From assembly GCA_947490145.1 (NCBI GenBank), contig CANLGD010000004.1, forward strand, positions 1-64,000: DNA of 64,000 nucleotides, read 5' to 3'. A program made the translations under genes and the position numbers. Positions 1 through 28,480 of this stretch are shown piece after piece. Below the pieces are notes generated by a model that was not told where the DNA came from, made no database searches, and saw nothing but the letters and a program-made list of their open reading frames with translations. How positions within the stretch are numbered: position 1 is the stretch's first letter; every line of letters starts with the position of its first letter. Source of the stretch: Flavobacteriia bacterium. GTDB lineage: Bacteria; Bacteroidota; Bacteroidia; Flavobacteriales_D; Crocinitomicaceae.

Positions 1-1428
1 TACCTTGAATTGAAAGCTGAACTGGAAAAGCAGGGTGAGCTATTTCATACCAGTTCAGATTCTGAAGTATTACTTCGATTATATATGCTGCAAAAAGAAG
101 CTTGCTTAAACGATTTAGACGGCATGTGGGCTTTTGCAATTTGGGATGAAGAGGAACAAACGCTTTTTTGCGCACGTGATCGTTTTGGTGAAAAACCATT
201 TCATTATATGAAAAATGACAAGGGGTTTTATTTTGCCTCTGAAATGAAAGCTTTTTGGGCTTTAGGAATTCAAAAAGTAAAAAATATTGAAATGTTTGAT
301 TTGTTTAAAAGAAAAGGATTTGTTCATAATCCGAATAATTTAAATGAAACTTTTTATAAAGATATTTTTAGATTGGAACATAGCCATTGGATGAAAGTTG
401 CAAAAAATGGGGAAGTTAAGATAGAAAAATATTACGATATTGATTGGAGAAAACAAGATTTTAATGGAAGTATTGAAGATGCTGCAATAAAATTTAAGCG
501 ATTGTTTCTTCAAAGTTTAGAAAGACGTTTCCGTTCTGATGTTATGGTTGGTACAAGTTTGAGTGGGGGTTTAGACAGTTCATCGATCGTTTGTAACATG
601 ACTCAATTTTTAGGAAAAGGCAACATCACACCCTTAACTTTTTCGGCTCGATTCGAAGGATTTAAGAAAGACGAAGGTTATTTTGTTGAAAAAGTCATTG
701 AAAAAACAGGTGTTGAAGCGCACTATACATGGCCAAATGGTTTAGAAATGTTCAACGATTTCGAGAAATTATGTCACCACCAAGAAGAGCCTTTTGGCAG
801 TGCTAGTTCATATGCCCAATACCGTGTGCAACAATTGGCGAAAGAAAAGGAGGTGACCGTGCTCATCGATGGACAGGGGGCAGATGAAATTTTAGCAGGG
901 TATACCTCTTATTATCCTAAATATTTAAAAACAATTGAAGCGAAAAATTTTTTTTCCTCAAAAAGAATAAAAGAACAAAACAAGTTTATTGATTTTCATA
1001 CTCCACATTCAATTCGTAAAAAAAACATAATAAAAATTTCTTTTTTTTACGAATTAAGACATCATATAAAGCACAAAAATAGTCATGGTCACAAATCACT
1101 TAATGAATATTTATATGATAGCACAATGAAAGGAGATTTGCAAGATTTATTGAGGTTTGCTGATCGCAATTCCATGGCGCATAGCCGAGAAGTGCGTTTG
1201 CCTTTTTTAAATAAAGAATTGGTTGAATTTTGTTTTTCCTTGCCTGATTCATACAAGTTAAACTTGGGATGGACTAAATATGTAATGCGTTTAGCTTTTG
1301 AAGAAGTTTTGCCTCAGGAAATATGTTGGCGTAAAGAAAAAGTAGGGTTTGAACCCCCTCAAAATGAGTGGATGCGTAATTTTGAAGAAAATAATTGGAA
1401 AAAATTAATGATTGAACATTATGGCTAA
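1..1428 (+). CDS. asnB: Asparagine synthase (glutamine-hydrolysing), 5' end outside window
   Basis: Transfers ammonia from glutamine to an AMP-activated carboxylate, normally aspartate to asparagine. Homologues in polysaccharide clusters may amidate sugar acids instead. The frame is open from the first base, so the catalytic N-terminal Cys and the start of the glutaminase domain lie upstream. What remains is the end of the Ntn glutaminase domain (DGMWAFAIWD, then ARDRFGEKPF) and a full synthetase domain with the PP-loop SGGLDSS at nt 562-582 and the DGQGADEILAGY segment at about nt 868-903. A TTG at nt 10 is only an in-frame codon, not the start. The next gene overlaps the stop by 8 bp, so the two are co-transcribed. 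The part at about nt 930-1130 is much richer in A/T and Lys than its flanks. The family is certain; the substrate is open because of the cluster context. Confidence 0.93.
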   Translation, partial: YLELKAELEKQGELFHTSSDSEVLLRLYMLQKEACLNDLDGMWAFAIWDEEEQTLFCARDRFGEKPFHYMKNDKGFYFASEMKAFWALGIQKVKNIEMFDLFKRKGFVHNPNNLNETFYKDIFRLEHSHWMKVAKNGEVKIEKYYDIDWRKQDFNGSIEDAAIKFKRLFLQSLERRFRSDVMVGTSLSGGLDSSSIVCNMTQFLGKGNITPLTFSARFEGFKKDEGYFVEKVIEKTGVEAHYTWPNGLEMFNDFEKLCHHQEEPFGSASSYAQYRVQQLAKEKEVTVLIDGQGADEILAGYTSYYPKYLKTIEAKNFFSSKRIKEQNKFIDFHTPHSIRKKNIIKISFFYELRHHIKHKNSHGHKSLNEYLYDSTMKGDLQDLLRFADRNSMAHSREVRLPFLNKELVEFCFSLPDSYKLNLGWTKYVMRLAFEEVLPQEICWRKEKVGFEPPQNEWMRNFEENNWKKLMIEHYG

Positions 1429-15622: not shown

Positions 15623-16069
15623 ATGTTATCCAAAAAATCAAAATACGCTATTAAAGCTTTGGTTTGTATTGCTAAAAATTACGGCAATAATGTTCCAATG
15701 AAAATTTCACAAATTTCTGAAAGTGAAAAAATTCCTCGTAAATTTTTGGAAACAATCCTAGTTGAATTGCGCAATAGTGGCTACGTTCACAGTAAAATGG
15801 GATCTCATGGTGGATATTATCTTGCGAAACATCCTGACGAAATTGTTTTAACTCAAATTATCAGACTTTCAGGTGGACCTTTGGCTTTGCTACCTTGTGT
15901 AAGTTTGAATTTTTATGAAAAATGCGAAGAATGTGTTAATGAAGCAACTTGTAGCCTGAGAGAAGTTGCTCAAGAAGTACGTGATGCAACAATTCGTATT
16001 TTATCCAAAACCAGTCTTTCTGACTTAATCGAAAGAGAAATGAAATTAATTGAAAAAATAGGGATTTAA
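15623..16069 (+). CDS. Rrf2 family transcriptional regulator
   Basis: A 148-residue winged-helix regulator. The DNA-binding part is MLSKKSKYAIKALVCIAKN, then ISQISESEKIPRKFLETIL and LRNSGYVHSKMGSHGGYYLA. The C-terminal half holds four cysteines in the order C-x8-C-x2-C-x5-C (PCVSLNFYEKCEECVNEATC), in the place where IscR-type members bind an Fe-S cluster; the spacing differs from the classical C-x5-C-x7-C. It lies 167 bp upstream of the sulfite reductase gene in the same direction, with two copies of an inverted repeat between them. It most likely controls the sulfur island in response to sulfur supply or Fe-S status, in the manner of CysR/CymR. The signal is inferred, not seen. Confidence 0.9.
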   Translation: MLSKKSKYAIKALVCIAKNYGNNVPMKISQISESEKIPRKFLETILVELRNSGYVHSKMGSHGGYYLAKHPDEIVLTQIIRLSGGPLALLPCVSLNFYEKCEECVNEATCSLREVAQEVRDATIRILSKTSLSDLIEREMKLIEKIGI

Positions 16070-16088
16070 ATTTATTTTTTTAAATAAT

Positions 16089-16109
16089 GTCCTACTAAAA
16101 ATGTAGTAC
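16089..16109 (+). promoter_or_regulatory. Operator 1, GTCCTAC-N7-GTAGTAC
   Basis: An imperfect dyad (GTCCTAC, seven bases, GTAGTAC), 20 bp after the Rrf2 stop. All 14 arm bases are identical to operator 2 at 16181-16201, while the seven central bases differ. This is the pattern expected of a protein-binding site. Confidence 0.75.
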
Positions 16110-16133
16110 TAATATTTTTATTTTTAAAATTTA

Positions 16134-16165
16134 TTTGCTTTTATCATTTTAATGTATTTATTTTG
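16134..16165 (+). promoter_or_regulatory. Probable promoter of the sulfur island
   Basis: TTTG at 16134-16137 is followed after 20 bp by TTATTTTG (16158-16165), seven of eight matches to TAnnTTTG. It lies between the two operators; the expected start point is near 16172, so operator 2 would cover about +10 to +30. Confidence 0.5.
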
Positions 16166-16180
16166 CAATCAAATTTACAA

Positions 16181-16201
16181 GTCCTACAATTTTAGTAGTA
16201 C
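16181..16201 (+). promoter_or_regulatory. Operator 2, GTCCTAC-N7-GTAGTAC
   Basis: Same arms as operator 1 with spacer AATTTTA. The two sites start 92 bp apart. It lies 35 bp before the ATG of the reductase, just downstream of the -7 box, a position from which a bound protein would repress. Confidence 0.75.
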
Positions 16202-16236
16202 TTAGTATTGATTAAAAACTAAAAATATATATTGAA

Positions 16237-18360
16237 ATGGCAACTTTTAGAGAAGGAATTGAAAATTTGAAATTATCTCCTACTAAAACCATAGTAGAAA
16301 AGGATATTCTTGATTTAGGCTATAAAATTCAAGCATTTAAAGAAGGGAAAATAAACGAAGATAAATTCAAAGCTTTGCGTTTGGCACGTGGAGTTTATGG
16401 ACAACGCCAACAAGGAGTTCAAATGATTCGAATCAAATTGCCATTCGGAAAAGTTACAAGCAACCAGTTGAGAAGAATTTCCGATGTTGCTGATGAATAT
16501 AGTACGGGAAGATTACACATTACTACACGTCAAGATATTCAAATACATCATGTTAGCCTTGATCGAACGCCTCAACTTTGGACTGATTTAGAAAAAGATG
16601 ATGTCACATTGCGTGAAGCTTGTGGAAATACGGTAAGAAATGTTACAGCGAGTGCAATCGCAGGAATTGATCCTAACGAACCATTTGATGTTTCTCCTTA
16701 TGCGGATTTGGTGTTTCGTTATTTTTTGAGAAAACCTTTCGGTCAAGAATTAGGTCGAAAAATAAAAATTGCTTTTAGCTCTTCTTCTGAAGATGATTCT
16801 TACACTTTTATTCACGATTTTGGCTTTATTCCAAAAATTGAAAATAAAATAAAAGGATTTAAAGTTTTAGTTGGAGGAGGTTTAGGAGCTCAACCTTTTT
16901 TAGCTCAAACAATTTTTGAATTTTTACCAGGAGAAGAAATTTTGTCATTTATCGAAGCATCAATCAGAGTATTTGATCGTTTGGGGGAAAGAAATAATCG
17001 TAATAAAGCTCGTTTAAAATATTTGATTTCAAAAATTGGAATTACTGAATTTTTAAATTTAGTGGAAACTGAAAAAAATGCAACACAATTTGATTCAAGT
17101 TTAGATTTTTCAGTTGTAGAACAACAAGCAATTTTTGATAAAGTAAAAGAGCCAATTTCTAAAGAAATTATTTTAGGAAATGCTTCTGATTCAGATTATA
17201 TTGAATGGGTAAAAACAAATACCTTTAATCAAAAGCAAACTGGATATTTGGGAGTTTATGTAAAAGTTCTTATTGGTGATTTTTATACAAATCAAGCGAG
17301 AAAACTAGCCGATATTGTTGAAACCGCCATAGGCAGCAACGAAGTTAATTATGCTTCAAATGACATTCGTTTTACGATTGATCAAAGTATTTTACTGAAA
17401 TTTGTTTTACCAGAAAATTTATTTGAATTATATAAAGCATTAAAATCTATTGGTTTAGCTTCTTCAGGATTTAATAGTTTAGCTGACGTAACTGCTTGTC
17501 CTGGTACTGATACATGTAATTTAGGTATTTCTAATTCTACAACAGTCGCGGAAGAAATTGAAAGTTTAATTAGAGTTGAATATCCTGAATTGCTCTACAA
17601 CAATGATATTAAAATAAAAATTAGCGGCTGTATGAATTCTTGTGGTCAACACGGATTGGCTCATATTGGTTTTCATGGAAGTTCTATGAAAGTTGAAAGC
17701 AACACTTTGCCTGCCCTTCAATTGCTTTTAGGGGGTGGAAAACTAGGAAATGGCCTTGGAAGAATAGCAGATAAAGTGATTAAGTTTCCAAGTAAACGCG
17801 TTTTGGATGTAATCAGAACTTTGTTGAATGATTACTCAGAAAATCAACTAGAAGACGAATTATTCAATGATTTTTATGATAGAAATGGCAATAAATATTT
17901 TTATAATTTATTGAAACCATTAACAGATGCTTCCACTTTGACTGAAAGCGATTTTATTGATTGGGGAAGCGAAGATAAATTCAAAACTGCGATTGGAGTT
18001 GGAGAATGTGCTGGTGTTGTGATTGATTTGGTTGCTACTTTGATTTACGATGCTGAAGAAAAATTACTCTCATCTGATGAAGCTTTTCAAGAAAATCGTT
18101 TTGCTGATTCACTTTATTTTGCATACTCTGCAGGGATCCACACAGCAAAAGCCTTGTTACTAAAATCAAAAGTACATTGTAATACGCACATTGGAATAAT
18201 GCAGGACTTTGATAAGCACCTCGCAAAAGAATATGGTTTTGATGAAAATAATTCATTTGAAAATTTTATTCTACAAATAAATAAAGAAAAAGCAAGTGCA
18301 GAATTTGCTGAAACTTATTCAAAAAAAATAAAACTATTTATTTCAAACGCAAAAAAATAA
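16237..18360 (+). CDS. Siroheme sulfite/nitrite reductase with C-terminal helical (HEPN-like) domain
   Basis: Six-electron reduction of sulfite to sulfide (or nitrite to ammonia) in the cytoplasm. The 707 residues hold two ferredoxin-like/siroheme half-domains. The siroheme-[4Fe-4S] ligands are C421 and C427 (CPGTDTC) and C465 and C469 (CMNSC); the substrate and siroheme arginines lie in STGRLHITTRQDIQIHHV and EACGNTVRNVTAS. The last 120 residues or so, from about 590, are extra compared with a plain NirA/CysI. They are helical and resemble a HEPN-type domain (DAEEKLLSSDEAF, then ADSLYFAYSAGIHTAKALLL). The neighbours (APS reductase, CysDN, siroheme genes) make sulfite the likely substrate. 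It leads the island behind the paired operators. Confidence 0.92.
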   Translation: MATFREGIENLKLSPTKTIVEKDILDLGYKIQAFKEGKINEDKFKALRLARGVYGQRQQGVQMIRIKLPFGKVTSNQLRRISDVADEYSTGRLHITTRQDIQIHHVSLDRTPQLWTDLEKDDVTLREACGNTVRNVTASAIAGIDPNEPFDVSPYADLVFRYFLRKPFGQELGRKIKIAFSSSSEDDSYTFIHDFGFIPKIENKIKGFKVLVGGGLGAQPFLAQTIFEFLPGEEILSFIEASIRVFDRLGERNNRNKARLKYLISKIGITEFLNLVETEKNATQFDSSLDFSVVEQQAIFDKVKEPISKEIILGNASDSDYIEWVKTNTFNQKQTGYLGVYVKVLIGDFYTNQARKLADIVETAIGSNEVNYASNDIRFTIDQSILLKFVLPENLFELYKALKSIGLASSGFNSLADVTACPGTDTCNLGISNSTTVAEEIESLIRVEYPELLYNNDIKIKISGCMNSCGQHGLAHIGFHGSSMKVESNTLPALQLLLGGGKLGNGLGRIADKVIKFPSKRVLDVIRTLLNDYSENQLEDELFNDFYDRNGNKYFYNLLKPLTDASTLTESDFIDWGSEDKFKTAIGVGECAGVVIDLVATLIYDAEEKLLSSDEAFQENRFADSLYFAYSAGIHTAKALLLKSKVHCNTHIGIMQDFDKHLAKEYGFDENNSFENFILQINKEKASAEFAETYSKKIKLFISNAKK

Positions 18361-18366
18361 GAAAAA

Positions 18367-19155
18367 ATGAATTCAGATAATACAAAAAATATAAAACCAA
18401 ATATTACATTAATTGGTTCAGGACCAGGAGATATTGAATTAATTACTGTCAAAGGATTAAATGCTTTGAAAAAAGCGGATGTAATTTTATATGATTCCTT
18501 AGTAAACCTTGATTTACTAGATTATGCACCGATTGCAAAAAAGATTTTTGTCGGAAAAAGAAAAGGATTTAAAGCATATTCGCAAGAAGAAATAAATCAA
18601 TTATTGGTTGATTCTGCCTTGAAATTTGGAAATGCTATTCGCTTAAAAGGAGGAGATTCATTTGTTTTCGGAAGAGGTTTTGAAGAAGTTCTTCATGCAG
18701 AAAAATACAATATTCCAACTGAAGTAATCCCTGGAATTTCTAGTTCAATTTCTGTCCCTGCTTTGGCCGGAATTCCGGTTACTCATCGAGCTTTAAGTAA
18801 TAGTTTTTATGTAATTTCAGCAACTTTGGCTGATGGAAAAATCAATCCTGAAATACAAAAAACAACAGAATTAAATGGAACAGTTGTCATTTTGATGGGT
18901 TTGTCAAAGCTAAATGAAATCGTTGAAATATATCAAAAGAATGGAAAAGTAAACTCAAAAATTGCTTTAATCAGCAATGGTTCTTTACCAAATCAAGAAG
19001 TAATTTCAGGTGAAATAGCTTCAATTAAAGCAATTTATGAAAAAAATCCAGTTCCTTCTCCAGCAGTGATTGTAATTGGAGAAGTTGTTGGTTTGCTTAG
19101 AGAGCAAGAAGAAAAATTTCATTCAAAACTGGTGCTTTCAGGAACTTTAAATTGA
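18367..19155 (+). CDS. cobA: Uroporphyrinogen-III C-methyltransferase
   Basis: Methylates uroporphyrinogen III twice with SAM to give precorrin-2, the siroheme precursor. The 262 residues carry the family motifs ITLIGSGPGDIELITVKG, ADVILYDSLV, RLKGGDSFVFGRG with the catalytic-loop Asp, and PGISSSISVPALAGIPVTHR. It starts 6 bp after the reductase gene and is surely co-transcribed with it. The later siroheme steps are supplied by the fusion protein at 22989-24476. In CysG these activities are in one polypeptide; here they are split. Confidence 0.95.
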   Translation: MNSDNTKNIKPNITLIGSGPGDIELITVKGLNALKKADVILYDSLVNLDLLDYAPIAKKIFVGKRKGFKAYSQEEINQLLVDSALKFGNAIRLKGGDSFVFGRGFEEVLHAEKYNIPTEVIPGISSSISVPALAGIPVTHRALSNSFYVISATLADGKINPEIQKTTELNGTVVILMGLSKLNEIVEIYQKNGKVNSKIALISNGSLPNQEVISGEIASIKAIYEKNPVPSPAVIVIGEVVGLLREQEEKFHSKLVLSGTLN

Positions 19156-19281
19156 TTTAAAATGTACATTAAAGAATATCATTTTTCCTTTTTGTGTTGA
19201 TTGAAGTAAGAATTAAAAAGCAAAATGAATTAAAAAACACACAGATAAATAACAAATAAAAGTATAAAAATTACAAATAAA

Positions 19282-21879
19282 ATGAAAACAAAAATTAAAT
19301 TAGTCATAATATTATTTACCCTAATTGGAAATAGTTCTCTAGCCCAGAAAACCTTTTTTACCCTAAAAGGTTCAGTAGTTGAATCAATAAATAATCAAGC
19401 TGTTTTTGGCGCAAAAGTAATTGTTAAAAATGAAAATGTAGGTGCAGTAACAGATGTTGAAGGAAAATTTGAATTAAAAGTTAATAATAAATTTCCAATA
19501 AAATTAATTATAACAGCACAAGGTTATAGTGAAACAGTATTTAATATTCAAAGTGATACAACTTCATTAATTATCAAAATTGAAAAGCAAGTAAATTTAA
19601 ATGAAGTAATTGTTTCAGGAAGAAGAAGAAAAGAAATTGTTCAAGATATTCCAATTCCAATAACTGTAATTAGTGGTCAACAAGCGGAAGATGCTGGAGC
19701 ATTTAATGTAAATAGGTTAAAAGAATTGGTTCCATCCGTGCAACTTTATTCTTCAAATGCAAGAAATACAACCTTAAATATTAGAGGTTTAGGTTCTACT
19801 TTTGGTTTGACAAATGATGGAATCGATCCAGGAGTTGGTTTTTATATTGATGGAGTTTACCATGCTCGGCCAGCAGCAACTTCTTTAGATTTTGTTGATG
19901 TTGAACAAATAGAAATTTTACGTGGACCACAAGGTACATTATTTGGTAAGAATACAACAGTTGGAGCTTTCAATATTACAAGTAAAAAGCCTAGTGAAAC
20001 AGCAGGAGCGAAAGTAGAATTAACTTATGGTAATTACAATTACATTCAAGCGAAAACATCTTTTACAGGAGCTTTGGCGAAAAATCTAAGCACTCGAATT
20101 TCTTTTAGTGGAACACAAAGAAATGGAACAATTTTTAATGAACGTGATCAACAAAGATATAATGGACTTAACAATCTAGGTTTTAAAGGACAATTACTTT
20201 ATACCCCATTTAAAAATTTAGAATTTCATTTAATTGGTGATTACAATAATCAAAGACCTGATGGTTCGGCCTTAGTCGTAGCAGGGGTAACTTCGACTTT
20301 AAGAAGCGCTTACAGACAATACGATAAAATAATTTCAGATTTAGGTTATGAAAAAACAGTCATTGGTCCCTTTGCAAGAAAAATTAGTACCAATACACCA
20401 TATAGACACGATCAATCTGCGGGTGGAACGTCGTTAAATATTGATTACAAACTTGGAAAAGGTACATTTACTTCAACTACTGCTTGGAGATTTTGGAATT
20501 GGAATCCTGTAAATGATCGAGATTTTACTGAGGTTGCGGCGCTTACAAAATCTCAAGCTCCATCAAGACATGAGCAATTTTCACAAGAATTAAGATATGG
20601 AGGAAACTTAACTAAAAATATTACAGGTGTAATCGGTGCATATTACTTAAATCAAATTCTTGAAACTTCACCTTTTCATGAAGAAGAAGTTGGTGCAGAT
20701 CAATGGAGATTTGTTCAAACGAGTTCAAGTGGTAACCAAGCATTGTATTCGACTCCAGGTTTACTTGATAATTATGGTATTCAAACATATTCAAATTTAA
20801 AATCAATTAGCTCTGCTGCGTTTGCTCAATTGGATTGGAAATTATTGAAAGTTGTACATTTAATTGGCGGACTAAGATATAATTACGACAAAAAAGTCAT
20901 TGATTATAATCGAAAAACATATGGAGGTCTAGAAACAAGTGATGCAACATTGTTAGCACTTAAAAAGGCAGTTTATTCAAATCAAAGCTTCAATACTGAA
21001 ACTGAGAATACAAATTTATCAGGGAACATTACGTTGGCGGTAAAACCAACTGAAAAAATAAATGTTTTTGCAACCTTTTCTACAGCTTATAAACCTGTTG
21101 GTGTAAATTTAGGTGGTTTACCAACAACAACTACTGGTGAAGCTGATTTATCATTGGCTGTAATTCGTCCTGAATATGTTCAGCACTTAGAACTTGGAAT
21201 TAAAACTAGACCATTTAAAGGTTTAATTTTTAATGCTACAGCTTTTAATACTGATATCAAGGATTATCAAACGAATGTTCAATCCCCACAACTTGGTGTG
21301 AATAGAGGTTATCTTGCCAATGCTGAAAAAGTGAATGTAAAAGGTTTGGAAGTGGATTTAAGTTATCAATTGAAAAACTTTTTGACTTTTAATGGAGCAT
21401 TGGCATATACAGATGGGAGATATGTGAAATTCACAAACGCACCTTTACCATTGGAAGAAACAGGAAGAACAACAAAAGACGAAAATGGAACAAATGTTCA
21501 GCAAGCATTTAAAGATGCTTCAGGTGATGTTTTACCAGGTATTTCAAATTGGAATATATCATTTGGAACTGAATTAAGTGCAAAAGGAAAACTTTTTGAA
21601 AAAAATGGAAGATTTTTTATCGCAGGTGACGTCTCATATCGTTCAAAATATTCGTCAAGTCCAACGGAATCTTCAGTTCTAGCTATTGATGGTTATTCTT
21701 TGATAAATTCAAGAGTAGGCTTTAAATCCAGTCAATTTACAATTTTCCTTTGGAGTAGAAATCTTGGAAGTTCAAAATATTTTGAACAATTACAAGCTGC
21801 AGCTGGTAATTCAGGACTTTATGCAGGTGTACTTGGAGATCCAAGAACTTACGGATTAACAATTCGATACAATTACTAA
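19282..21879 (+). CDS. TonB-dependent outer-membrane receptor in the sulfur island
   Basis: An 865-residue outer-membrane protein: signal peptide (residues 1-21), a carboxypeptidase-regulatory-like domain (about 25-105, AVFGAKVIVKNENVGAVTDV), a plug with NIRGLGSTFGLTNDGIDPG and DVEQIEILRGPQGTLFGKNT (about 140-235), then a 22-strand type barrel ending in an aromatic residue (TIRYNY). No SusD partner follows, so it is not a glycan-utilisation pair. A 126-bp gap separates it from cobA and 24 bp from the peroxiredoxin. Its place inside a sulfate-assimilation operon suggests import of a sulfur-containing ligand or a metal or siderophore needed for the Fe-S/siroheme enzymes; the ligand itself cannot be read. 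Confidence 0.93.
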   Translation: MKTKIKLVIILFTLIGNSSLAQKTFFTLKGSVVESINNQAVFGAKVIVKNENVGAVTDVEGKFELKVNNKFPIKLIITAQGYSETVFNIQSDTTSLIIKIEKQVNLNEVIVSGRRRKEIVQDIPIPITVISGQQAEDAGAFNVNRLKELVPSVQLYSSNARNTTLNIRGLGSTFGLTNDGIDPGVGFYIDGVYHARPAATSLDFVDVEQIEILRGPQGTLFGKNTTVGAFNITSKKPSETAGAKVELTYGNYNYIQAKTSFTGALAKNLSTRISFSGTQRNGTIFNERDQQRYNGLNNLGFKGQLLYTPFKNLEFHLIGDYNNQRPDGSALVVAGVTSTLRSAYRQYDKIISDLGYEKTVIGPFARKISTNTPYRHDQSAGGTSLNIDYKLGKGTFTSTTAWRFWNWNPVNDRDFTEVAALTKSQAPSRHEQFSQELRYGGNLTKNITGVIGAYYLNQILETSPFHEEEVGADQWRFVQTSSSGNQALYSTPGLLDNYGIQTYSNLKSISSAAFAQLDWKLLKVVHLIGGLRYNYDKKVIDYNRKTYGGLETSDATLLALKKAVYSNQSFNTETENTNLSGNITLAVKPTEKINVFATFSTAYKPVGVNLGGLPTTTTGEADLSLAVIRPEYVQHLELGIKTRPFKGLIFNATAFNTDIKDYQTNVQSPQLGVNRGYLANAEKVNVKGLEVDLSYQLKNFLTFNGALAYTDGRYVKFTNAPLPLEETGRTTKDENGTNVQQAFKDASGDVLPGISNWNISFGTELSAKGKLFEKNGRFFIAGDVSYRSKYSSSPTESSVLAIDGYSLINSRVGFKSSQFTIFLWSRNLGSSKYFEQLQAAAGNSGLYAGVLGDPRTYGLTIRYNY

Positions 21880-21903
21880 TATTTATTTTAAAATCAATTA
21901 ATT

Positions 21904-22539
21904 ATGTCATTAAAATTAGGAGAAGTCGCACCAGATTTCAAAGCAGAAACATCAAAAGGTTTAATCAATTTTCACTCATGGCTAGGTGATAGTTGGGGAG
22001 TTTTATTTTCTCACCCAGCAGATTTCACGCCAGTTTGTACAACCGAATTAGGAACAGTTTCTAACTTACAAGATGAATTTACAAAACGAAATGTAAAAAC
22101 GATTGCCTTGAGCGTTGACTCTCTAGAATCTCATTTCAAGTGGATTGATGATATCAATGAAACTCAAAATACCATTGTTGATTTTCCAATAATTGCAGAT
22201 CCAAATTTTGAAGTTGCAAACTTGTATGAAATGATTCATCCAAACTCTTCTGATAAATTTACTGTACGTTCCGTTTTTATAATTGGAACAGATAAAAAAA
22301 TAAAATTAACTCTAACTTACCCAGCTTCGACAGGTAGAAATTTTGATGAAATATTAAGAGTTATTGACTCCTTGAAACTTACAGCCGATTATTCAGTGGC
22401 AACTCCAGCAAATTGGATTCAAGGTGAAAAAGTAGTTATTATTCCAAGTGTAAGCGATGAACTTGCTTTGGAAAAATTTCCAAAAGGTTTTGAAACGATA
22501 AAGCCTTATTTAAGATTAACTGAACAACCAAATAATTAA
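21904..22539 (+). CDS. 1-Cys peroxiredoxin (Prx6 type)
   Basis: Reduces peroxides. The 211 residues contain the peroxidatic motif HPADFTPVCTTELG with C45, and no second cysteine anywhere in the protein, so it is strictly 1-Cys and needs an outside thiol for recycling. The length and the C-terminal extension (SVATPANWIQGEKVVIIPSV) fit the Prx6 class. It starts 24 bp after the TonB receptor gene. It may protect sulfur-metabolism intermediates or oxygen-sensitive cofactors; this is inference from position. Confidence 0.94.
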   Translation: MSLKLGEVAPDFKAETSKGLINFHSWLGDSWGVLFSHPADFTPVCTTELGTVSNLQDEFTKRNVKTIALSVDSLESHFKWIDDINETQNTIVDFPIIADPNFEVANLYEMIHPNSSDKFTVRSVFIIGTDKKIKLTLTYPASTGRNFDEILRVIDSLKLTADYSVATPANWIQGEKVVIIPSVSDELALEKFPKGFETIKPYLRLTEQPNN

Positions 22540-22556
22540 CTTATAAATTCAAAAAT

Positions 22557-22596
22557 GTCGATTTTCAAGTAGTAAAAAATTTGAAAATCGACTTTT
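22557..22596 (+). terminator. Perfect 12-bp hairpin after the peroxiredoxin gene
   Basis: GTCGATTTTCAA (22557-22568) pairs fully with TTGAAAATCGAC (22581-22592), 12-base loop, followed by only TTTT. It may be a weak terminator or an mRNA-processing or stability element inside the operon. Confidence 0.6.
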
Positions 22597-22605
22597 AATA
22601 AAATC

Positions 22606-22986
22606 ATGAAACATATTTTCTCTCTTCTTTTATTTTTTACTTGTCAGTTATTAACTGCTCAGGATCAAAAATCAGCTGAATTATCTTTTGAAGGTCAGAT
22701 AGCTGCAACAACAAACGGAAAAGGTTGTTTCATCAATTTCGGTGGGCCAGGAATTAAATTGAAAGCAAAATCGTTTCATTTTGCGATAAATATGCTCCCT
22801 TCTTTGCGCTTTCAAAAAGAAGACCCAAAACCATTAATTACACCAATTTTAGGAGTTGGACCTCAATTTTATTTCTTAAAATCGAAACGATTAATTCTAA
22901 GTTTTCCAATTTATTATTATGCCCCAAATCATAAATGGGAATTTTCAGCAGGAATTGGTTATGTTTTAACACAAAAAAAATCTTAA
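22606..22986 (+). CDS. Exported protein of unknown function (126 residues), beta-rich
   Basis: Residues 1-18 form a signal peptide (MKHIFSLLLFFTCQLLTA). The rest alternates polar and hydrophobic strands with Gly turns (FINFGGPGIKLKAKSFHFAI, ILGVGPQFYFLKSKRLILSF, WEFSAGIGYVL), like a small outer-membrane beta-barrel or half-barrel. It sits 2 bp before the siroheme synthase-transporter gene and is co-transcribed with it, so it may belong functionally to the sulfur island. No family was recognised with confidence. Confidence 0.75.
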   Translation: MKHIFSLLLFFTCQLLTAQDQKSAELSFEGQIAATTNGKGCFINFGGPGIKLKAKSFHFAINMLPSLRFQKEDPKPLITPILGVGPQFYFLKSKRLILSFPIYYYAPNHKWEFSAGIGYVLTQKKS

Positions 22987-22988
22987 AT

Positions 22989-24476
22989 ATGAATGCTGTA
23001 AAATCCAATAATTTAAATAATTTATTTCCTATCTTTCTTAAAGGTAATGAATTAAATTTTCTCATAATTGGTGGGGGAGAAGTTGCATTGGAAAAACTTA
23101 CAGCAGTATTGAATAATTCTCCTGAAGCAAAAATTCGTTTGGTAGCAAAAACTTTTTCTGAATCACTCCTTTTATTTATAACTGACAAAAAAAATATTGA
23201 AAAAATAGAGGGAGAATTTGAAGTAAAATATTTGCAAGGTTCACAGGTTGTGATAACAGCTTTAAACAATATTCAAACATCTTCAGACATCAAAGAATTA
23301 GCAAATCAAAAAGGTATACTTTATAATGCAGCTGATAAACCTGATTTGTGTGATTTTTATTTAGGATCTATTGTCCAAAAAGGAAATTTAAAAATTGGCA
23401 TATCAACAAATGGAAAATCTCCCACTTTAGCAAAAAGAATTAAGGAAGTCTTAAATGAAACAATTCCCGAAGAAATCAACACAAGTTTAGATCAGTTGCA
23501 AGAGATTAGAAATAATTTAAAAGGTAATTTCCAAGAAAAGGTTGCAAAATTGAATGAAATAACTAAGAACTTTGAAGTGGAAAAGAAAAAAGAATGGTTT
23601 CATTTTAGTTTTAAACGACTTTTTGCCTACGTTTTTTCAATTTTAGGAATCATGTTGGCTGGACATTTAATTTTCTCCATAATTCCTTTGTCAACTATTT
23701 GGAATTCGGCTTCAAGTGCCTTTGACAGTTTAGATGTTCAATTTGTTTATTTCATGCTTGGAGGATTTATTGCCCAAATGATTGACGGCGCATTGGGTAT
23801 GGCTTATGGTGTCAGCGCGACAACTTTTTTACTCAGTTTTGGAGTTTCTCCAGCTATTGCGAGTATGAGCGTTCATACCTCTGAAATTTTTACAAGTGGC
23901 GTTTCAGGATTTATGCACTTGCGATTTGGAAACGTGAACAATAAATTATTTAAAACAATTGTAATTCCTGGAGTAATAGGGTCAATTTTAGGAGCTTATG
24001 TTTTGACAGAATTTGAAAATTATAATTCCTATATCAAACCAATAGTGGGGATTTATACTTTAACACTTGGTATCATTATTATTTATAAGATAATTCGTAA
24101 AAATAATACCCGGAAAAAAGTGAAACGAGCTGGTTGGCTTGCTTCTTTAGGTGGATTTTTAGATGCAATTGGCGGAGGCGGTTGGGGACCAGTTGTTTCT
24201 TCAACATTGATAGCAAGAGGTAAAAATCCTAGAATTGTGATTGGTTCAGTCAATTTAGCTGAATTTTTTGTTTCACTAGCAAGTTCTTTTACTTTTTTCA
24301 CGCTTTTAGGAGCTTCACATTGGCAACCAACTTTAGGTTTGATTTTAGGAGGAGTTTGCGCAGCTCCGATTGCGGCACATTTGTCAAAGAAAATCAACAT
24401 TAAAGCAATGATGCTTATGGTGGGGATAATCGTAATAATAGTTAGTTTGAGAATAATAATTATGTCAATAATTTAG
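22989..24476 (+). CDS. Siroheme synthase (precorrin-2 dehydrogenase) fused to a TSUP transporter
   Basis: Two proteins in one chain of 495 residues. Residues about 8-200 form a CysG-N/Met8p-type NAD-binding domain (FPIFLKGNELNFLIIGGGEVALEKLTAVL, region 13-41; NAADKPDLCDFYLGSIVQKG; ISTNGKSPTLAKRIKE), oxidising precorrin-2 to sirohydrochlorin and probably inserting Fe. Residues about 210-495 form a TSUP/TauE-SafE integral-membrane carrier (GGFIAQMIDGALGMAYGVSA and a repeat LGGFLDAIGGGGWGPVVSST) for sulfite, sulfate or related anions. I chose ATG 22989, 2 bp after the upstream stop; a longer frame from 22935 overlaps the upstream gene and adds residues without family likeness. Siroheme synthesis and a sulfur-anion carrier in one polypeptide fit the island well. 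Confidence 0.92.
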   Translation: MNAVKSNNLNNLFPIFLKGNELNFLIIGGGEVALEKLTAVLNNSPEAKIRLVAKTFSESLLLFITDKKNIEKIEGEFEVKYLQGSQVVITALNNIQTSSDIKELANQKGILYNAADKPDLCDFYLGSIVQKGNLKIGISTNGKSPTLAKRIKEVLNETIPEEINTSLDQLQEIRNNLKGNFQEKVAKLNEITKNFEVEKKKEWFHFSFKRLFAYVFSILGIMLAGHLIFSIIPLSTIWNSASSAFDSLDVQFVYFMLGGFIAQMIDGALGMAYGVSATTFLLSFGVSPAIASMSVHTSEIFTSGVSGFMHLRFGNVNNKLFKTIVIPGVIGSILGAYVLTEFENYNSYIKPIVGIYTLTLGIIIIYKIIRKNNTRKKVKRAGWLASLGGFLDAIGGGGWGPVVSSTLIARGKNPRIVIGSVNLAEFFVSLASSFTFFTLLGASHWQPTLGLILGGVCAAPIAAHLSKKINIKAMMLMVGIIVIIVSLRIIIMSII

Positions 24477-24503
24477 TTATAAAATAAATAAAAATTAAAA
24501 ATC

Positions 24504-25382
24504 ATGAGTAAAAAAGTATTATTAAGCGATTCAGGTCCAGAAATATCAAATTCTGTTTATAGTTTTTGGAGATGGAATGAAATTGAAAATTTGAATGTAG
24601 AAATAGTAAGTGACATTCTTACTTACACTCTAAGTCTCGGAATCAATGCATTTGATGTATCCCCTTTGTATGGTAATGGTCAAATAGAAAAACTTGTAGG
24701 AGAATCGATTCATAAATTAGGTTTAAAAAGAGAAAATCTTGTATTATTCTCCAAGATTGGCAATAAAACGATTAATAATGAAGGATTTTATCAATATCGA
24801 GAGTTGAATGATAAAAGCATTCAAAAACAAGTTGATAATTCATTAAATAATCTTCAAACTAATTATTTGGATGTTTTGATTATTGATGGTTTTGATCCAT
24901 TAATGAATGTAGAACAAGTTGCTTCGTCGCTAACAGCATTGCAAATAAGAGATAAAATCAAACATATTGGCGTTTCCGAATTTAATATTCAACAGTATAA
25001 ACTATTAGCTTCTCGTCTTTCTTATGAAATAGTAACTAATCACTTCGAATTGAACTTGTTACAAACTGACGCTCTAAAAGATGGACGAATTGATTTTCTC
25101 AAAGAAAATTATTCCAAACCTATGGCGTTTGGACCTCTTGCTGATGGAAGAATATTAACTGGACAAGATGAAAAAGCTGTTCGAGTAAGAAACGTTTTGG
25201 AAATCTTGAGCAAAAAATATGATTCAAATATCGAACAATTAGCTGTCGCTTGGATTTATAAATTGGGTGCTCTACCAATTATTGGAAGTCTATCTCGAAA
25301 TAGAATTTTAAATGCTGCCACAGCTGATAAAACAGAATTAAGTTATGAAGATTGGCAATTAATTTATTCAGCAATTAAATAA
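24504..25382 (+). CDS. Aldo/keto reductase-like protein lacking the catalytic His
   Basis: A 292-residue TIM-barrel protein of the aldo/keto reductase superfamily, closest in shape to the YdhF group. The tetrad residues D51 and Y56 (FDVSPLYGNGQ) and K84 (LFSKIG) are present. The fourth, normally His in a stretch such as LLIHRPDPLM, is D128 here (LIIDGFDPLM). An altered reaction is possible; a few relatives with Glu in that place act as double-bond reductases. It lies between the siroheme/TSUP gene (27 bp) and cysH (8 bp), so it belongs to the sulfur island. Substrate unknown. Confidence 0.85.
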   Translation: MSKKVLLSDSGPEISNSVYSFWRWNEIENLNVEIVSDILTYTLSLGINAFDVSPLYGNGQIEKLVGESIHKLGLKRENLVLFSKIGNKTINNEGFYQYRELNDKSIQKQVDNSLNNLQTNYLDVLIIDGFDPLMNVEQVASSLTALQIRDKIKHIGVSEFNIQQYKLLASRLSYEIVTNHFELNLLQTDALKDGRIDFLKENYSKPMAFGPLADGRILTGQDEKAVRVRNVLEILSKKYDSNIEQLAVAWIYKLGALPIIGSLSRNRILNAATADKTELSYEDWQLIYSAIK

Positions 25383-25390
25383 ATTGGATC

Positions 25391-26077
25391 ATGTTAAATG
25401 AAAAAGATTTTAATCAATTGACACTTCCTCAAATTTTGAGTGACATCGCAACTAAATTCCCGAATAAAGCGGCTTTTTCAACCAGTTTAAGTTGGGAAGA
25501 CCAAGTGATTACTCACCATATTTTCAGTTTAGATTTACCAATTAAAGTCTTTACTTTAGATACTGGTCGCTTGTTTCCAGAAACTTACAGTGTTTTAAAC
25601 CGAACTTTAGACCGATACAAAAAGAAGATTGAAGTATATTTTCCAAATTTTATGAAAGTAGAAAAATTAGTCACTGAAAAAGGACCAATAAGTTTCTATG
25701 AATCACTTGAAAACAGAAAAGAATGTTGTTTTGTGAGAAAAGTTGAACCTTTAAATCGCGCACTTCAAGGAACTGATTGTTGGATTACAGGTTTGAGAGC
25801 CGAACATTCTGAAAATCGAAGTGAAATGAAAATGATTGAATTTGATGACAGTCGAAATTTGACAAAAATTCATCCTTTAGCAGATTGGACTTTAGAAGAA
25901 GTTAAAGCTGAAATTGCAAAACACAATATTCCATACAATAGTTTACACGACAAAGGTTTTGTAAGTATTGGTTGTCAGCCATGCACAAGGGCAATAAACG
26001 AAGGGGAAGATTTCCGTGCCGGAAGATGGTGGTGGGAAGATAATTCTAAAAAAGAATGTGGTTTGCACGTGAAATAA
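25391..26077 (+). CDS. cysH: Adenylylsulfate (APS) reductase, thioredoxin-dependent
   Basis: Reduces adenylylsulfate to sulfite and AMP using thioredoxin. The 228 residues carry the PP-loop-like SLSWEDQV, the paired cysteines C112-C113 (KECCFVRK), the C195-x2-C198 pair (GCQPCTRA) and the catalytic C223 in KECGLH. The CC...CxxC set binds a [4Fe-4S] cluster and marks an APS reductase rather than a PAPS reductase. No cysC-like kinase is seen in the island, which agrees with direct use of APS. It follows the aldo/keto reductase gene by 8 bp and supplies sulfite to the siroheme enzyme. Confidence 0.96.
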   Translation: MLNEKDFNQLTLPQILSDIATKFPNKAAFSTSLSWEDQVITHHIFSLDLPIKVFTLDTGRLFPETYSVLNRTLDRYKKKIEVYFPNFMKVEKLVTEKGPISFYESLENRKECCFVRKVEPLNRALQGTDCWITGLRAEHSENRSEMKMIEFDDSRNLTKIHPLADWTLEEVKAEIAKHNIPYNSLHDKGFVSIGCQPCTRAINEGEDFRAGRWWWEDNSKKECGLHVK

Positions 26078-26095
26078 GTTAAGAATTATGAATTA
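26076..26095 (+). repeat. Dispersed GTTATGAATTATGAGT-type repeat, partial
   Basis: AAGTTAAGAATTATGAATTA right at the cysH stop, a diverged member of the intergenic motif also found at 14134, 27168 and 52249. Confidence 0.4.
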
Positions 26096-26136
26096 GTTGT
26101 GATTAATAACTCAATTTAAAATAAAACAAAAATCGA

Positions 26137-26250
26137 ATGAAAAAAACTTTGTTTAAGGAGGCGAATGAAGATTTTGTTTTTGAGTCCCGACTTATCGGGA
26201 TGATAAAACGAAATTTGAAATTCAACGATGTTAAACTAAGTTTATTTTGA
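26137..26250 (+). other. 37-codon open frame or dispersed element between cysH and cysD
   Basis: An ATG frame of 37 codons (begins MKKTLFKEANEDFVFESR, ends FNDVKLSLF) fills most of the 191-bp gap. It contains a perfect 6-bp hairpin, TCCCGA (26185-26190) / TCGGGA (26195-26200) with loop CTTA, and has no T-run. Sequences of this sort are typical of repeated intergenic elements in Flavobacteriales, so I prefer an element over a gene. It may cause processing or pausing between cysH and cysD. Confidence 0.3.
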
Positions 26251-26268
26251 TTCTCAAAACAATAATAT

Positions 26269-27165
26269 ATGGATTATTTAGATCAATTAGAGGCTGAAGC
26301 GATATATATCTTAAGAGAAGTCGCAGGGCAATTCGACCGCCCAGCCTTACTTTTTAGTGGTGGAAAAGACAGTATTTGTTTGGTTCATTTAGCTTTAAAA
26401 GCTTTTCGTCCAGGGAAATTTCCTTTTCCTTTGGTACATGTTGATACAGGACATAATTTTCAAGAAGCCTTGGACTATCGAGATTTATTAGCGAAACAAT
26501 TGGACGAAAAATTAATTGTTCGCTACGTAGAAGACACAATTAAAGCTAAGAATTTGCAAGATGGGAAAGGAAAATTTCCGAGCAGAAACGGATTGCAAAC
26601 TTACACCTTACTTGATGTAATTGAAGAGTTTGAATTTGATGCTTGTATTGGTGGCGCTCGCCGTGATGAAGAAAAAGCACGAGCAAAAGAACGCATTTTC
26701 TCTGTTAGGGATGAATTTGGTCAATGGGATCCAAAAAAACAACGACCAGAAATTTGGAATATTTATAACGGAAAAATTGATAAAGGAGAAAATGTGCGTG
26801 CTTTCCCAATTTCAAATTGGACAGAATTAGATGTTTGGAAATACATCAAAAGAGAAAATATTGTACTTCCTTCAATTTATTTCACTCATAAAAGAGAATG
26901 TATTTTGACCGAAAATGGACAATTAATGAATACAAATAAATTTGTGGAATTGGATGAAAATGATGTAGTTGTAACAAAAAATGTTCGATATAGAACAGTT
27001 GGTGACATGACTTGTACTTCAGCAGTTGAAAGTGAAGCTTACACCGTGGACGATATTATTTCTGAAATCAAGGAAACAAAAATTTCAGAACGCGGGGCAA
27101 CTCGAATGGACGACAGAGTTTCAGAAGCAGCAATGGAAGATAGAAAAAAAGGAGGATACTTTTAA
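26269..27165 (+). CDS. cysD: Sulfate adenylyltransferase subunit 2
   Basis: With CysN it makes adenylylsulfate from ATP and sulfate. The 298 residues show the PP-loop LLFSGGKDSICLVHLALKAF, VHVDTGHNF, the insertion EDTIKAKNLQDGKGKFPSRN, ACIGGARRDEEKARAKER and the C-terminal ERGATRMDDRVSEAAMEDRK followed by KGGYF, all diagnostic of CysD. The usual length is about 300. A gap of 191 bp from cysH holds a repeat-like element; cysN follows after 70 bp. Confidence 0.97.
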   Translation: MDYLDQLEAEAIYILREVAGQFDRPALLFSGGKDSICLVHLALKAFRPGKFPFPLVHVDTGHNFQEALDYRDLLAKQLDEKLIVRYVEDTIKAKNLQDGKGKFPSRNGLQTYTLLDVIEEFEFDACIGGARRDEEKARAKERIFSVRDEFGQWDPKKQRPEIWNIYNGKIDKGENVRAFPISNWTELDVWKYIKRENIVLPSIYFTHKRECILTENGQLMNTNKFVELDENDVVVTKNVRYRTVGDMTCTSAVESEAYTVDDIISEIKETKISERGATRMDDRVSEAAMEDRKKGGYF

Positions 27166-27167
27166 TT

Positions 27168-27226
27168 AGTTATGAATAATGAGTGATGAATTTTACTCAT
27201 AACCCATAATTCAAAACTCATAACTC
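27168..27226. repeat. Paired copies of the GTTATGAATTATGAGT-type repeat between cysD and cysN
   Basis: One plus-strand copy (AGTTATGAATAATGAGTGAT) is followed at once by two minus-strand copies (ACTCATAACCCATAATTC and ACTCATAACTC on the plus strand). The pair fills almost the whole 70-bp cysD-cysN gap and can fold as a long imperfect stem. Confidence 0.6.
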
Positions 27227-27235
27227 AAAAATAAA

Positions 27236-28480
27236 ATGGAATTATTAAGATTTTTTACAGCAGGAAATGTTGACGATGGGAAAAGCACTTTAATTGGAAG
27301 ATTATTGTTTGATAGCAACTCGATCTCAACAGATATTATCGAAACTTTAACAAGACAAAGTAAAGCAATAGGAAATGATGCAAACATTGATTTGGCTTTA
27401 TTAACCGATGGTTTGAGAGCTGAACGTGAGCAAGGAATTACGATTGATGTCGCTTACAAGTATTTTACAACCGAAAAGCGAAAATTCATCATCGCTGATA
27501 CTCCGGGACATTCGCAATATACGCGAAATATGTTTACTGGTGCGTCGAATACTGATTTGGCCATTATTTTGGTTGACGCAAGAAATGGAATTACCGATCA
27601 AACAAAACGGCATAGTATTATTTCTTCGATTTTGGGAATTCCGCATATTTTGGTGTGCATCAACAAAATGGATTTGGTAAATTACGATGAAAAAGTTTAC
27701 AATCAAATTCAAGAAGATTATTTGAAATTTTCTAAAGAATTGCATTTGAAAAATATTTCATTTATTCCAACAAGTGCGTTGACTGGAGAAAATGTAGTTA
27801 CTAATTCGGAAAATCTGGCTTGGTATAAGGGTGCCTCTTTATTTGAATTTTTGGAGCAAGTTGAAATTCCTCATGAAGAAGAAAATCAAGATTCTCGTTT
27901 TCAAGTACAATATGTTATCAGACCGCAAACAGAAGATTTACACGATTATCGTGGTTATGCTGGGAGTGTTTTAAGCGGAACTTTCAAAAAAGGACAAGAA
28001 GTTCAGATTTTTCCTTTAGAGTCAAAAACAACAATCTCAAAAATAGAGAAAAATGGGGAAGAAATCATCGAAGCTTCTGCTGGTGAACCAATTATTATTC
28101 ATTTAGAACACGATTTAGATGTTAGCCGTGGAAGTACAATTGTTCCTTTAAATCAACAAATTGAATCAGAAAAAAACCTTGAAGCAACGATTTGCTGGAT
28201 GGACAACAAACCTTTTCAAGCAGGACAAAAATTAATTTTACAGCAGAATAGTTTTAGAACCAAAGCAATTGTCAAAGCAATTGATAGTAAAATTGACATT
28301 CATAACTTCAGTGAAATTGAGTCAAATGGAACGATTCACTTGAATGAATTTTGCAAAATTCAATTGAAAACAGCAGAAAAAATTAGTTTTGATTCCTATA
28401 AAAAGAATAGAAAAACGGGTGCTTTTATTTTGATAAATGAAAATACGAATAATACAGTTGCAGCTGGAATAATAAATTAA
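27236..28480 (+). CDS. cysN: Sulfate adenylyltransferase subunit 1 (GTPase)
   Basis: GTP hydrolysis by this elongation-factor-like subunit drives adenylylsulfate formation by CysD. The 414 residues include the P-loop GNVDDGKST (10-18), REQGITIDVAYKYF, the G3 motif DTPGHSQY, the G4 motif NKMD, and the two EF-Tu-like beta-barrel domains. No CysC kinase domain is fused at the C-terminus, which agrees with an APS rather than PAPS route. It is the last gene of the sulfur island; a different transcription unit follows. Confidence 0.97.
   Translation: MELLRFFTAGNVDDGKSTLIGRLLFDSNSISTDIIETLTRQSKAIGNDANIDLALLTDGLRAEREQGITIDVAYKYFTTEKRKFIIADTPGHSQYTRNMFTGASNTDLAIILVDARNGITDQTKRHSIISSILGIPHILVCINKMDLVNYDEKVYNQIQEDYLKFSKELHLKNISFIPTSALTGENVVTNSENLAWYKGASLFEFLEQVEIPHEEENQDSRFQVQYVIRPQTEDLHDYRGYAGSVLSGTFKKGQEVQIFPLESKTTISKIEKNGEEIIEASAGEPIIIHLEHDLDVSRGSTIVPLNQQIESEKNLEATICWMDNKPFQAGQKLILQQNSFRTKAIVKAIDSKIDIHNFSEIESNGTIHLNEFCKIQLKTAEKISFDSYKKNRKTGAFILINENTNNTVAAGIIN

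Follow-up and report, generated by a model that had tools for sequence, protein, structure and literature searches.

Conserved palindromes beside a four-cysteine Rrf2 gene as probable operators of a sulfate assimilation island in Crocinitomicaceae

What controls the promoter that separates an Rrf2-family regulatory gene from the sulfate assimilation genes behind it? In the stretch of DNA analyzed here (64,000 nucleotides [nt], hereafter the window), rrf2 (positions 15623 to 16069, + strand, 148 amino acids [aa]) is followed by a gene on the same strand for a cysI-like siroheme sulfite reductase (16237 to 18360, 707 aa, NIR_SIR domains). The first-pass annotation had called attention to a palindrome, GTCCTAC-N7-GTAGTAC, occurring at 16089 to 16109 and at 16181 to 16201 with the same arms and different spacers, and both copies are present as described. 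Our literature search, which took in few of the subscription journals, found no paper that deals with Rrf2 control of sulfate assimilation among Bacteroidota.

We call these copies site 1 (GTCCTACTAAAAATGTAGTAC; core TCCTACTAAAAATGTAGTA, 16090 to 16108) and site 2 (GTCCTACAATTTTAGTAGTAC; core TCCTACAATTTTAGTAGTA, 16182 to 16200); they are listed without a strand. When the 3.08-Mb genome was searched for the 21-mer, as had been proposed, they were the only exact copies; one match with a single mismatch, on contig C85, was set aside as probably due to chance. Short repeats in two copies are frequently random in A+T-rich DNA, and the sites might be chance repeats or hairpins in such intergenic DNA (for example, the terminator of rrf2) with no regulatory role. 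However, the window held six matches with three or fewer mismatches against a mean of 0.73 in shuffled sequence, and none of 100 shuffles reached six. No Rfam family matched the window or any of eight related loci. The consensus TCCTAY-N7-RTAGKA gave four exact matches in the whole genome; the one on contig C25, within an unrelated gene, was also set aside as probable chance. The other three are sites 1 and 2 plus site 3 (TCCTACTAAAACCATAGTA, 16278 to 16296, likewise without a strand), which lies within cysI at +41 from the ATG and had been overlooked in the first-pass annotation.

Is the motif kept in homologous loci? Orthologues of rrf2 were present in 39 of the 59 genomes searched, distant genomes among them, and we gathered 80 further rrf2 loci together with flanking DNA (at most 4 kb per flank). 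Not even the sister species has the literal 21-mer, so that part of the expectation failed; a broader palindrome, TCCTAY-N7-RTAGGA, of which the 21-mer is one version, does occur beside orthologues of the window gene across Bacteroidota. A search with CTAC-N7-GTAG had wrongly indicated that the motif was not conserved; it was too strict, the inner arm positions being Y and R. With CTAY-N7-RTAG, matches beside rrf2 were enriched at a spacer of 7 alone (30, versus 0 to 7 at other spacers), and dyad counting, which uses no motif seed, found TCCTA-N9-TAGGA in 8 loci versus 0.00 expected. Dyad counting was used in place of a palindromic expectation-maximization search with a simple background, which drifted to G+C-rich palindromes.

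A weight matrix was then built from 38 sites, all from outside the genus of the window, although these training sites were themselves picked by consensus match in rrf2 neighborhoods. Scanned across the 64 kb, it placed the three sites first, at 16182 (score, 17.4), 16278 (15.5), and 16090 (14.4); the fourth match scored 10.5, and shuffled sequence gave about 0.07 matches per 64 kb at scores of at least 14. This ranking by a matrix built from other genera, the crowding of three of the four genome-wide matches into 207 bp, and the conservation across genera with a fixed spacing leave an origin by chance hardly credible. The individual scores in the window (14 to 17) are lower than those of many sites in relatives (20 to 30), and Sphingobacteriaceae loci with an Rrf2 orthologue scored poorly. 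A candidate motif in the latter, TATAT-N5-ATATA, was rejected, as it proved to be the promoter region adjoining a degenerate version of the site.

The identity of the arms of sites 1 and 2 had been read as a sign of selection, but the sister species contradicts this reading. Its two sites differ from each other (TCCCAC/ATAGGA versus TCCTAT/GTAGTA), and the matrix score is kept. Site 1 differs at 4 of 25 bases between the window, where it scores 14.4, and the sister species, where it scores 15.0; among randomly drawn sets of four substitutions, 1.8% did as well. Because the arms differ in the sister species, we take their identity in the window to be incidental and the predicted binding score to be the conserved quantity.

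Site 3 has a counterpart in a second genus (g2). Six genomes of this genus have TCATACTAAATCG(A/G)TAGTA at the identical cysI codons, with scores of 17.3 to 17.6, plus an additional upstream site with a lower and varying score (7.5 to 15.4). With protein sequence and codon usage taken into account, a score this high has a probability of 0.008 for the window and 0.0001 to 0.0006 for g2, where the six genomes are related and weigh as about one observation. The recurrence of site 3 in a second genus exceeds what the protein sequence requires.

Which protein would bind these sites? The product of rrf2 is a member of the Rrf2 superfamily by profile (Pfam PF02082, E value of 1.3e-34 and 119.6 bits against a cutoff of 30; TIGR00738, 108.8 bits against 73.3) and by fold. 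It fell below the NCBIfam equivalog cutoffs for CymR (75.4 versus 195 bits), IscR (60.4 versus 207.55), RirA (56.2 versus 193), and NsrR (45.5 versus 182). The C-x8-C-x2-C-x5-C motif reported in the first-pass annotation was confirmed as C92, C101, C104, and C110; these residues, checked in 46 orthologues, are invariant, as is E107. For comparison we used the sequence of Escherichia coli IscR, in which C92, C98, C104, and H107 were confirmed by position. In the alignment, C92, C104, and C110 of the window protein pair with the IscR ligands C92, C98, and C104, respectively, C101 is extra, and the position of His107 holds a variable residue. The window protein shares the Rrf2 fold with this [2Fe-2S] regulator but lacks its ligand motif, C-x5-C-x5-C-x2-H (PMC9218516), and the difference in cysteine spacing from IscR noted earlier holds. 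The predicted targets also differ: sulfate assimilation rather than isc and suf. With four invariant cysteines and no conserved histidine, an Fe-S cluster or a thiol switch is plausible.

The AlphaFold model (pLDDT of 91.3) had as its best match among solved structures CymR, a regulator that works with CysK (TM score of 0.77 by query, 30% identity). In Bacillus subtilis and Staphylococcus aureus, CymR is the master repressor of cysteine metabolism and controls sulfur assimilation genes (PMC3828012). Fold, structural match, and the predicted sulfur assimilation targets make the two proteins alike; unlike the window protein, with its four invariant cysteines and small local set of sites, CymR binds no Fe-S cluster (PMC9338935). 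The layout of the sites also suits the family. The operators of NsrR and RsrR in Streptomyces are palindromes in which the central 7 bp have no protein contact (PMC9338935), and the motif beside rrf2 has the same layout, since a spacer of 7 alone is enriched; arm sequence, targets, and signal are different.

The genes downstream of cysI, all on the + strand from 18367 to 28480, are cobA, a TonB-dependent receptor gene, a peroxiredoxin gene, a cysG-TauE fusion, an aldo/keto reductase gene, cysH, cysD, and cysN. Two gaps, of 191 nt between cysH and cysD and of 126 nt between cobA and the receptor gene, are wide enough for further promoters. The cysI-like protein is below every NCBIfam equivalog cutoff, and its exact enzyme assignment comes from this context. 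The fusion is a single frame (22935 to 24476) with siroheme synthase (CysG N-terminal) and TauE/SafE sulfite exporter domains, a pair also found in relatives.

Among near-complete genomes of the family (completeness of at least 90% and contamination of at most 5%), rrf2 was present in 70 of 151, and all 33 with this cysI also had this rrf2, the pairing having been matched by hand from two lists. In the full set, cysI occurred without rrf2 in five genomes, each less than 90% complete. Neither gene is present in G001, G002, and G004, three nearly complete genomes from the genus of the window, so the island (15623 to 28480) apparently comes and goes as a unit.

Joint inheritance can by itself link neighbors, and a different regulator, for example one of the LysR type, might bind the sites with rrf2 as a mere fellow traveler in the island. 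We consider this improbable. Many relatives have sites on the promoter of rrf2 itself, the position class of the site follows the Rrf2 tree (see below), the arm-N7-arm layout suits Rrf2 operators, and the site stays at the cys genes in g2 and in genome G009, although there rrf2 is located elsewhere. In g2 (L008, L009, L036, L124 to L126, and L128 to L130), rrf2 is divergent from metX, away from cysI, and has no strong site alongside. The matrix found no self-regulatory site upstream of rrf2 in the window (best score, 1.3), whereas some relatives have one. Binding by an Rrf2-type regulator of the sulfur operon, as the first-pass annotation had supposed, is most likely. We think it probable that the sites are operators of the adjacent four-cysteine Rrf2, which would be CymR-like, regulate sulfate assimilation locally, and probably act by repression. 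The computations establish the sites and their conservation, spacing, specificity, and genetic linkage; both the binding by this Rrf2 and the sign of the regulation are what we infer.

The sign of regulation turns on where the sites lie relative to the promoter. The promoter-like elements given earlier, TTTG (16134 to 16137) and TTATTTTG (16158 to 16165), are present. TTTG, the -33 element (+ strand), aligned with TTCTTG/TATTTG of relatives, and the -7 element, TATTTTGC (16159 to 16166, + strand), is of the TAnnTTGY type and corresponds to the TTTGC conserved in relatives. The footprint alignment of relatives reads TTCTTG/TATTTG, 24 nt, and then TTTGC; the promoter that sites 1 and 2 were said to bracket is a conserved one. 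TAnnTTGY (SM5) is a promoter type in the start-site map of Flavobacterium psychrophilum, where it was ascribed to a likely alternative sigma factor (PMC9723704). An SM5-type -7 box is found both in the window and in most cys promoters of clade A (the window, Fluviicola, and others). Because TATTTTGC fits SM5, the start is predicted at 16170 to 16171, which puts the center of site 1 at about -71 and site 2 at about +11 to +31, close to the +10 to +30 first proposed.

The position classes, which were assigned by hand from the sequences, differ among relatives. In clade A the site usually lies 26 nt upstream of the TTG (23 to 26 overall, 20 in one), and the TTG is 24 nt from TTTG (23 in one locus); this 26/24 geometry is fixed in about 20 loci, and site 1 of the window shows it too. 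For clade B (Flavobacteriaceae and others), the site begins 3 to 5 nt past TAnnTTTG, and in group C it is just before TAnnTTTG. At the promoter of rrf2 itself, in most clade A loci with a site there, the site reaches into or adjoins the -7 region. On the Rrf2 tree, classes A and B are each set apart by a branch, with support of 100/98 and 100/99.

Centered at about -71, the fixed upstream site of clade A leaves the promoter uncovered, an arrangement as compatible with an activator as with a repressor. Rrf2 at site 1 could contact RNA polymerase and activate when sulfur is short, with sites 2 and 3 limiting overexpression. The distance of 23 to 26 nt between site 1 and the promoter, kept in divergent loci, points that way, as do the many clade A loci in which the upstream site is the only one at the cys promoter and the fact that class A is a single clade departed from the core-overlapping position. 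We nevertheless regard activation with a brake as rather unlikely: in clades B and C and at the promoter of rrf2 itself the sites overlap the core or the start, where repression is expected, and CymR, the nearest characterized relative, is a repressor. These overlaps in the sister clades, together with the CymR analogy, make repression the more likely sign. Somewhat more readily, but still tentatively, we entertain an evolutionary shift in this clade, in which the operator would have moved from the promoter core to about -71, a switch to upstream, possibly activating, action, with downstream operators added, one of them coding and kept by codon choice.

Under the favored reading, repression by the adjacent Rrf2, a dimer would bind TCCTAY-N7-RTAGGA and control the promoter of the sulfate assimilation island. 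Site 1, with its constant spacing to the -33 and -7 elements downstream of it, would serve as the positional anchor, and RNA polymerase would be blocked or retarded at the auxiliary operators, sites 2 (about +21) and 3 (about +117, in cysI). The outcome would most likely be that sulfate reduction is repressed once the supply of cysteine, sulfide, or Fe-S is adequate, as with CymR; which of these is the signal is a guess. The lac operon likewise surrounds a single promoter with several operators, including one within the first gene, and the window shares this multioperator layout. The lac protein is unrelated, however, and the window has no sign of tetramers or looping and a site spacing that is not kept. 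In clade A, second sites downstream occur at -34, -43, or -55 from the ATG, or at +41, at varying distances from site 1. Compared by hand, the distances between sites in relatives (about 91 to 177 bp) have no common helical phase, and looping therefore lacks positive support.

Two features of relatives may extend the system. Several loci (L010, L038, L040, L042, L043, L044, L189, L190, L192 to L195, and L197) have, in the interval from the cys promoter to the first gene, short open frames rich in Cys codons (for example, MQMCCM, MCCC, and QLCCM), followed by a terminator-like hairpin with a T run. These could possibly be a cysteine attenuator downstream of the Rrf2-controlled promoter; no such frames were seen in the window. 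In g2 (L242:1920 and L243:1889), a canonical site, TCCTACTAATTCGATAGGA, stands ahead of a TATATTTG promoter and a gene resembling EamA-type membrane transporters, which is a possible further target.

For sulfate assimilation in Bacteroidota, these results supply a candidate regulatory protein, a consensus that crosses genera, a promoter, and the exact target bases, and the question is now directly testable in culturable relatives such as Fluviicola, Algibacter, and Pedobacter. The shift in operator position along the Rrf2 tree offers a naturally occurring example of the way in which a regulator may alter its mode of action.
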